Source: Neorhizobium galegae (GTDB lineage Bacteria; Pseudomonadota; Alphaproteobacteria; Rhizobiales; Rhizobiaceae). From it: a DNA stretch of 64,000 bases. Shown here one piece after another: positions 34,583 through 35,706 of the stretch. The notes below the pieces were generated by a model. The model did no database searches and had not been told where the DNA came from. It worked only from the letters and a program-made list of their open reading frames with translations. A program made the position numbers and the translations under genes. Location: the NCBI RefSeq assembly GCF_021391675.1, contig NZ_CP090095.1, positions 501,501 through 565,500 on the forward strand. Reading direction: 5' to 3'. Every line of letters starts with the position of its first letter. Position 1 is the first letter of the stretch.

Positions 34583-34849
34583 ATGGCCAATACAACTTCG
34601 GCGAAAAAAGCGACCCGCAAGATCGCTCGCCGTACCGCAGTCAACAAGTCCCGCCGCTCGCGCGTTCGTGGCTTCATCCGTAAAGTCGAGGAAGCCATCG
34701 CTTCCGGCGATATGACCGTTGCTGCCGAAGCCCTCAAGGCTGCCCAGCCGGAAATCCAGCGTGCCGCCACCAAGGGCGTGCTTCACAGCAACACGGCATC
34801 CCGCAAGGTGTCCCGTCTTGCTGCACGTGTGAAGGCTCTTTCGGCCTGA
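34583..34849 (+). CDS. rpsT: 30S ribosomal protein S20
   Basis: An 88-aa basic protein ([20 protein letters not shown]) that binds 16S rRNA in the small subunit body. Family length is 86-88. The ATG at 34583 follows AGAGAGGC. A strong terminator follows. Upstream of dnaA, as in other rhizobia. Confidence 0.98.
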
Positions 34850-34874
34850 TCATTTCACAAACTGTATCATAATG

Positions 34875-34903
34875 AAGCCTGGTCCTCTCGACCGGGCTTT
34901 TTG
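34875..34903 (+). terminator. Rho-independent terminator of rpsT
   Basis: AAGCCTGGTC (34875-34884) pairs with GACCGGGCTT (34890-34899, one G-U pair) around CTCTC, followed by a T-run. It starts 25 bp after the rpsT stop. Confidence 0.9.
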
Positions 34904-34951
34904 TGATTCTCTCAGGCCTCCTTATATTTATCCGGCTCATTAACAATTTCG

Positions 34952-34967
34952 TGTCACCGGCGTGACA
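34952..34967. other. Dyad TGTCAC-N4-GTGACA
   Basis: Perfect 6-bp arms around CGGC in the AT-rich left part of the dnaA upstream region. The size suits a dimeric regulator; no known consensus matched with certainty. Confidence 0.4.
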
Positions 34968-35077
34968 GAAAATAGTTATTTTAATCAATGACTTACTGGA
35001 GGTCTATGAGTCTGTGGGTGACTTTGGCGATGGCCAAAAGCCCCCAGGTGGAGTCAAGAAGATTTTTATTTTTTCTG

Positions 35078-35091
35078 TGAACGATCGTTCA
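35078..35091. promoter_or_regulatory. 14-bp perfect palindrome, possible operator
   Basis: TGAACGATCGTTCA is its own complement. The form resembles operators of TetR-family repressors. It lies between GANTC sites upstream of dnaA; no regulator gene is adjacent. Confidence 0.45.
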
Positions 35092-35106
35092 GAATGTATG
35101 TCATTT

Positions 35107-35125
35107 TTGAATCCCATTGATTCAA
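35107..35125. promoter_or_regulatory. Dyad with a GANTC in each arm
   Basis: TTGAATC and GATTCAA are perfect 7-bp inverted arms around CCATT. Each arm contains one CcrM target (GAATC, GATTC), so methylation would mark both halves of the dyad. Confidence 0.5.
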
Positions 35126-35189
35126 CAGCGATTCTCCATGAATGCCTCTGTGACATTCAAATCACGCTCGTGGAGTCAACGCCCGCCTC

Positions 35190-35204
35190 TTAATTTTGCG
35201 TAAA
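35190..35204 (+). promoter_or_regulatory. CtrA-like site TTAA-N7-TAAA
   Basis: Seven of eight consensus bases of the alphaproteobacterial CtrA site (TTAA-N7-TTAA) are present in the dnaA upstream region, 13 bp after the last GANTC of the cluster. A single near-match in AT-rich DNA could be chance. Confidence 0.3.
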
Positions 35205-35373
35205 ATTCATCATTGATCTTGGCATTTGATCCTGCCTAAATGGCCTTCAGCAAGGGGCGCGGGGATTACTTCAGAGGGCTGCCGGTTACCGTCACATGGT
35301 GGACGGCAGGCAGACTTTTACCCTTTGCAACGGGATAAACTCTCCCGTTTTCCTGATAACCATCGGTTGCGAT

Positions 35374-35393
35374 CCGGAAATTGGCATTTCCGG
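35374..35393 (+). other. Perfect hairpin in the dnaA leader
   Basis: CCGGAAAT and ATTTCCGG pair around TGGC. Twelve bases later a T-run follows a second GC stretch (GGCCGGTTTTTG), so an attenuator-like structure is possible. Confidence 0.4.
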
Positions 35394-35653
35394 AAACGGC
35401 CGGTTTTTGTCAACGCGATCCGGTCCGGTGTCCGGATGAAGGAGGTGGAAGAGGTTCGGACGGCTCATGATGAGGATGAGGGCGTTCGTATATGTGGGGT
35501 GGCTTCCGCAAGCGCAGACCGTTCACGAGGCGGGCTGGGCGTAACTTTCGATCGGCTGCGAGGACGAGAGAAGGTTTTGAAACACAAGGGGACGGGCGGC
35601 GACGGTTCTCAATGATTGGGAATGGTTTGCTATGCCTTGAAACAAAGTTTGTT

Positions 35654-35679
35654 CTGGCGGCGTTAACGAGAACCGCCAG
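35654..35679 (+). other. Hairpin just upstream of the dnaA start
   Basis: CTGGCGG (35654-35660) pairs with CCGCCAG (35673-35679); the 12-nt loop contains the palindrome CGTTAACG. It lies 28 bp before the first dnaA start codon, so it could influence translation or serve as an operator. Confidence 0.4.
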
Positions 35680-35706
35680 GCTACGAGATTTGGAAGGCGG
35701 CGAATT

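Follow-up and report, generated by a model that had tools for sequence, protein, structure and literature searches.

Results

The dnaA locus

The stretch of DNA analyzed here, called the window, comprises 64,000 nucleotides and corresponds to C1:501501-565500 of a 6.05-Mb assembly in three contigs. It carries dnaA, whose product is 99% identical to DnaA of N. galegae strain DS1978, and, upstream of it as in 79 of 80 relatives, rpsT. The 856-bp gap between the two genes contains a cluster of GANTC sites and several further conserved features (Table 1). Contig C1 has a HemE motif at its end and a DnaA-box-like sequence at its start, which suggests that the replication origin is located at the contig junction; dnaA would therefore lie about 536 kb away from the origin.

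Table 1. Features of the rpsT-dnaA region (positions in the window; counts refer to the 81 aligned gaps)
Feature	Position	Strand	Basis or remark
rpsT (ribosomal protein S20), upstream neighbor	34584..34850	+	ORF and sequence
rpsT intrinsic terminator	34874..34900	+	terminator scan; conserved in alignment
GANTC site 1, not core	34905..34909		kept in 53/81
Dyad TGTCA-N6-TGACA, just after the rpsT terminator	34952..34967		conserved in alignment, variants listed
CAAN4TT(A/G) block, NtrX-like (CAAN2-5TTG), also IHF-like	34986..34995		alignment of 81
GANTC site 2, lineage-specific, not core	35008..35012		kept in 6/81
GANTC site 3, core; extended form GAGTCAAG	35051..35055		kept in 79/81
T-tract TTTTTATTTTTT	35063..35074		conserved in alignment
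GANTC site 4, core; NtrX-like half-site instead in some lineages	35109..35113		kept in 72/81
Position of the 11-mer CAAAACCCTTG in Sinorhizobium L081; window reads GAATCCCATTG	35109..35119		alignment
GANTC site 5, core; TTGATTCAA	35119..35123		kept in 81/81
GANTC site 6, core; GCGATTCT	35130..35134		kept in 80/81
GANTC site 7, core; GAGTCAA	35173..35177		kept in 81/81
A/T dyad AATTTT-GCGT-AAAATT upstream of the -35 box	35192..35207		alignment; reduced to AAA(A) in several clades
Putative dnaA promoter TTGATC-N17-CTAAAT	35213..35241	+	conservation; fixed 17-bp spacer in 81/81
Predicted long dnaA leader, putative start site	35248..35706	+	from promoter position
AAGGCGGC before the start codon; corresponds to the S. 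meliloti EcpR1 target region	35694..35701	+	invariant or nearly so
dnaA	35707..37272	+	ORF, homologues

The seven GANTC starts given in a preliminary description of this DNA were all correct, and so were its remarks on longer motifs. GANTCAA occurs four times if both strands are counted (three times on the plus strand and once on the minus strand, where the site at 35109 is read backwards), the 10-mer GTGGAGTCAA occurs twice in the window, and the dyad TTGAATC-N5-GATTCAA has a GANTC in each arm. The leading GTG of the 10-mer and the left TT of the dyad are not conserved.

Density of GANTC sites

The density of the cluster, previously called unusual, proved mild when compared with base composition and clear when compared with a GANTC-poor genome. 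In dinucleotide shuffles, the gap with its seven sites gave a mean of 4.55, and 3307 of 20000 shuffles reached seven; for the 273-bp stretch that spans the cluster, selected after the cluster had been seen, the mean was 1.91 and 23 of 20000 shuffles reached seven. Among 16 motif classes of the same shape, GA.TC ranked second by mean count (6.67 versus 7.20 for GC.GC). GANTC is depleted in the window (81 observed against a mean of 371 in 100 shuffles), and a scan of 2.464 Mb of contig C1 (53% of it, with 10 kb masked) counted 2869 sites, or 1.16 per kb. Roughly called non-coding gaps contained 1.96 per kb, a frequency at which seven or more sites have a probability of 1.7e-3 in 856 bp and of 1.6e-6 in the chosen 273 bp. 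The automatic gap list, in which rpsT was missed and the dnaA gap taken as 1292 bp, ranked this gap 13th of 896.

The search for similar clusters elsewhere, proposed in the preliminary description, returned nine with at least five sites per 273 bp in 2.46 Mb, including one that precedes gcrA. Ranked as 273-bp segments of the scanned sequence, the dnaA cluster was third, behind C1:4363340 with 11 sites and C1:4608944 with 8, of which six belong to a 21-bp repeat. Since the excess over the gap's own composition is weak and the probability for 856 bp is 1.7e-3, we regard the density in the dnaA gap as suggestive only. Density alone was rejected as the main argument because the gap count does not stand out significantly from dinucleotide shuffles and GA.TC comes second of the 16 classes.

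Some dense places were recorded in their own right. The densest cluster found, with 11 sites in about 260 bp and 16 in the roughly called gap (C1:4363296-4364561), lies beside a large helicase-like ORF. At C1:4608944-4609205, GATTC recurs six times with a 21-bp period near a LacI-like regulator ORF. Two relatives (L066 and L069) have 11 and 10 GANTC in their rpsT-dnaA gaps.

Conservation in close relatives

We aligned 81 Rhizobiaceae dnaA gaps, namely that of the window and the best 80 of at least 577 relatives, which are hence close ones. The comparison that the preliminary description had called for came out in favor of the array: five of the seven sites are kept with rigid spacing across the 81 gaps, although the counts (Table 1) come from related sequences and not from independent events. 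The same four letters at any gap position are kept in a mean of 17.5% and a median of 6%. The core sites are spaced by 58-10-11-43 bp, and distances remain almost fixed up to the putative promoter. Indeed, the 10-bp and 11-bp distances are identical in all 81 gaps, the 58-bp distance occurs in 73 (57-59 in all) and the 43-bp distance in 60 (42-44 in all). From 35173 to the A/T dyad there are 21 bp in every gap, and from this dyad to the putative -35 box 20 bp in 80 of 81. Between the putative -10 box and the ATG we counted 60 different lengths among the 81 gaps. The middle base is invariant at each of the five conserved sites, so the constraint exceeds the specificity of CcrM.

A coarser alignment over 8.8 kb, in which the window was joined by 44 of the 80 relatives (45 genomes in total), served as an internal control. 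At only eight of its columns does a GANTC begin in 60% or more of the genomes; five of these are the dnaA array and three (31902, 36517 and 36670) lie in genes. Site 34905 is kept in only 7 of the 44 relatives there. Conservation, not density, is the decisive evidence at the sequence level that the array is more than chance.

The full element has the order TGTCA-N6-TGACA, CAAN4TT(A/G), GAGTCAAG, TTTTTATTTTTT, GAATC-N5-GATTC-N6-GATTC, GAGTCAA, AATTTTGCGTAAAATT and TTGATC-N17-CTAAAT. CAAN4TTG is most frequent at the 34986 position (39 of 81 gaps), with CAAN4TTA, the form of the window, in 27. This block was initially read as an IHF site, but the strict consensus fits only 14 of the 81 sequences, and an NtrX-like site is therefore preferred.

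Putative promoter and leader

The putative promoter TTGATC-N17-CTAAAT is close to the rhizobial consensus. An E. coli-type promoter scan reported two other sites and not this one. Its putative -35 box is preceded by the core GANTC sites at distances from 35 to about 160 bp. Within the spacer, positions 35228-35235 read an almost invariant GATCCTGC, which is unusual for a spacer. Starting from this promoter, the dnaA leader would be about 458 nt long. For S. meliloti dnaA a long 5'-UTR has been reported, together with sites of the sRNA EcpR1 over the RBS and the start codon (PMC4414408). Minus-strand promoters with CTTGACTC as -35 were considered and rejected, as no conserved -10 follows by eye.

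Reach beyond close relatives

A sequence-only model of the element core, for which 50 of the 81 sequences were used, found one copy in the window's genome. Of 199 family genomes, 64 gave a match at E<=0.001, including 44 with E-values of about 1e-20 or lower; 135 gave none under the stricter filters applied. The 20 weaker matches belong to other genera; rpsT was found upstream in all but L280 and a DnaA motif downstream in all but L272 (19 each), and since no match lacks both, all appear to be located in this gap.

Two genomes of the genus g114 (G272 and G173) have GTCAAG, the T-tract and the promoter, and none of the five GANTCs, which means that the methylation sites can be lost while the element stays. 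GANTC therefore does not accompany the element everywhere. Both genomes encode a RAMA domain of the kind typical of CcrM.

At the level of the order, we compared 30 dnaA loci (L082-L111, the best of 150 genomes) and dropped seven in which the DnaA motif was not found. Among the remaining 23, the array occurs only in the window's own genome and one close relative (L083); the other 21, three Mesorhizobium-like ones included, arrange their GANTCs differently, which shows that the rigid array does not extend across the order. In a distant genus, two genomes (L099 and L101) have a GANTC triple of their own in the rpsT-dnaA gap, with 11- and 8-bp spacing. The three Mesorhizobium-like loci (L084-L086) have a different set in common upstream of dnaA, consisting of GAATC, GATTC, GAATC and the DnaA-box-like CTATCCACAG.

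CcrM, GcrA and the GANTC groups at gcrA and ctrA

The window's genome encodes a GcrA domain and has one match over the cut-off to the CcrM-type RAMA domain (PF18755), for which Caulobacter alone matches among 14 control genomes. Just upstream of gcrA lies a GANTC cluster (C1:646777-646964) with a 10-9-13 spacing common to relatives. In 29 gcrA loci (best 30 of 61 genomes, one locus without a start dropped), 10-9-13 (or 14) spacing was found in 12 and the outer 17-19 and 13 spacing in 23. A further group (C1:3116332-3116456) accompanies ctrA (start C1:3116565), with a 9-bp pair in 21 of 29 loci (best 30 of 41 genomes, again one without a start dropped). In both groups the middle base varies, unlike at dnaA. 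By eye, 14 gcrA and 15 ctrA loci revealed no extended motif common to the three genes beyond GANTC and spacing. Triples of GANTC within 40 bp, a criterion chosen after the dnaA array had been seen, numbered 15 at ten places in the C1 scan, three of them upstream of dnaA, gcrA and ctrA.

Possible link to NtrX

In S. meliloti, phosphorylated NtrX is reported to activate dnaA and to bind the 11-mer CAAAACCCTTG (PMC9223101). In the Sinorhizobium relative L081, this 11-mer runs into a GATTC, the last G being common to both. At position 35109, 72 of the 81 gaps read GAATC, which is no match to CAAN5TTG; of the nine others, seven read CAAA and thereby match CAAN5TTG, and two have near forms (AAAA or GAAA). 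One position thus alternates between GANTC and an NtrX half-site. With respect to the NtrX motif CAAN2-5TTG, the window's block at 34986 has a TTA end, and the 35109 position reads GAATCCCATTG. A Walker motif suggests that an ORF at C1:1975682 is NtrX-like, and NtrX may act at dnaA in the window's species as well.

Discussion

Five GANTC sites, one CAAN4TTR block, the T-tract and the putative promoter lie at nearly fixed distances across the compared Rhizobiaceae. We propose that they form an NtrX/CcrM control region, about 250 bp long, that serves a single sigma-70 promoter of dnaA, with methylation as a tuning layer, a reading to which we give an even chance. Response regulators, NtrX being the best candidate, would bind TTG/CAA-type half-sites that overlap GANTC sites and, once bound, would activate the dnaA promoter. 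NtrX-type sites and CcrM sites would accordingly have bases in common in a multi-protein control region of dnaA. If regulators bind such half-sites and activate the promoter, methylation is probably a tuning layer on a transcription-factor region and not the whole switch. The promoter, a methylation effect and fork timing at dnaA are what we infer here.

The preliminary description had suggested a methylation switch for dnaA. Part of this idea stands, and it largely withstood the checks proposed for its refutation: the array is conserved and rigid, CcrM-type and GcrA domains are encoded, and GANTC groups also precede gcrA, whose promoter is reportedly repressed by methylation in Agrobacterium. 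Other observations weaken it, namely the 35 bp to the putative -35 box, the fixed middle bases and the loss of the sites in g114 despite RAMA. The last two favor transcription-factor binding as the primary constraint. It could even be the sole one: the region would then be purely a platform for transcription factors or nucleoid proteins. GANTC would arise only incidentally, through motifs such as GTCAAG and TTGATTCAA, and methylation would have no regulatory role. This is a serious though rather unlikely alternative. Not only the middle bases but also the flanks of the sites are fixed, and GTCAAG is still read both in the two genomes among the 81 that are without GANTC at 35051 and in the g114 pair, where TCAA has in addition been retained at two further sites; moreover, an NtrX site has been documented here in S. 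meliloti. Such a platform, however, hardly explains why five separate sites with different flanks are all GANTC in a GANTC-depleted genome, or why the middle base varies in the groups upstream of gcrA and ctrA, and Agrobacterium gcrA is experimentally methylation-sensitive (PMC11514494).

A different kind of platform is conceivable for the H-NS-like protein MucR, which would cover the A/T-rich tract, shield some GANTCs from CcrM and so cause local hypomethylation. Hypomethylation of GANTC by MucR is reported for Caulobacter and S. meliloti, and our region has a conserved T-tract, but the S. meliloti examples given in that report are SMa1635 and SMa2245, not dnaA (PMC5172544). The nearly fixed spacing also exceeds the need of a loose A/T platform, and we consider this explanation improbable. 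The gap is long (856 bp), but a small RNA to which the array belongs, or a second transcript as suggested in the preliminary description, is very improbable, since the window has no Rfam match at gathering score, the consensus fold computed from 50 of the 81 gaps (-6.0 kcal/mol) has a covariation term of +0.07 and a double change in 1 of 14 pairs, and no conserved second promoter was recognized by eye in the alignment; given this lack of covariation, we read the element as DNA and find the idea of a second transcript without support.

Several known systems resemble the proposed NtrX/CcrM region in part. In the Sinorhizobium relative L081, the 11-mer bound by S. meliloti NtrX is found at the same place, and a second CAAN4TTR block is conserved upstream in the compared gaps; the window differs in having GAATCCCATTG at the 11-mer position. 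In E. coli, the dnaA promoter under Dam/SeqA control is likewise preceded by several methylation sites spaced by about one helical turn, although methylase and motif are different. Few GANTC sites lie near the dnaA promoter of Caulobacter crescentus, which has GANTC at dnaA in common with the window but not the rigid five-site array well upstream of the promoter. Its dnaA transcription is affected by GANTC methylation (PMC3973325). The account of NtrX at S. meliloti dnaA, in its accessible text, does not mention GANTC (PMC9223101).

The gcrA promoter of Agrobacterium tumefaciens is comparable in that several GANTC occupy a short upstream region, some of them about a helical turn apart in relatives, and in that it controls a master-regulator gene. 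Six GANTCs are reported in its 250 bp upstream, and promoter activity is lower when they are methylated (PMC11514494). At gcrA, unlike at dnaA, no site is more than about 190 bp away from the start codon, the sites surround a -35 box placed by eye, their middle base varies, and repression by methylation has been shown; at dnaA the middle base is fixed and methylation control is a candidate. Caulobacter-type GcrA promoters have GANTC at precise positions relative to -10/-35, and this placement is absent at dnaA, where the nearest conserved GANTC ends 35 bp before the putative -35 box. Of the five core sites, 35130 alone fits the extended GcrA motif YGAKTCK quoted in PMC8725594, as do the non-core sites 34905 and 35008; GcrA motifs and regulons are reported to vary among species.

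A more speculative and, in our estimation, doubtful extension concerns the spacing of about one helical turn in the arrays of Rhizobiaceae at dnaA (10-11 bp), gcrA (10-9-13) and ctrA (9). These arrays might constitute a common hemimethylation sensor, in which a hypothetical SeqA counterpart would recognize multiple hemimethylated GANTCs along the same face of the helix and time the three master regulators by fork passage. At dnaA it would compete with NtrX and thus join nitrogen status to replication timing.

We found no description of the array upstream of dnaA in the accessible open literature, supplements aside, and it may be in print elsewhere. It lies 530-660 bp upstream of the dnaA ATG and hence outside the ranges used in two studies: in an alphaproteobacterial promoter survey, the GANTC count reached no further than 400 bp upstream (PMC2877005), and in the work on Agrobacterium CcrM the direct regulon was defined by 200 bp upstream of each ORF (PMC11514494). 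The main-text section of the latter on CcrM depletion does not include dnaA among the genes changed over two-fold.

In conclusion, how the DnaA level is set in rhizobia and agrobacteria is not settled in the literature we could access, and the array and its conservation suggest that DNA methylation may help to time DnaA production. The genus g114, which is without the sites, provides a natural control. If methylation acts, fork passage and nitrogen signaling would converge on shared bases of the gene for the replication initiator.
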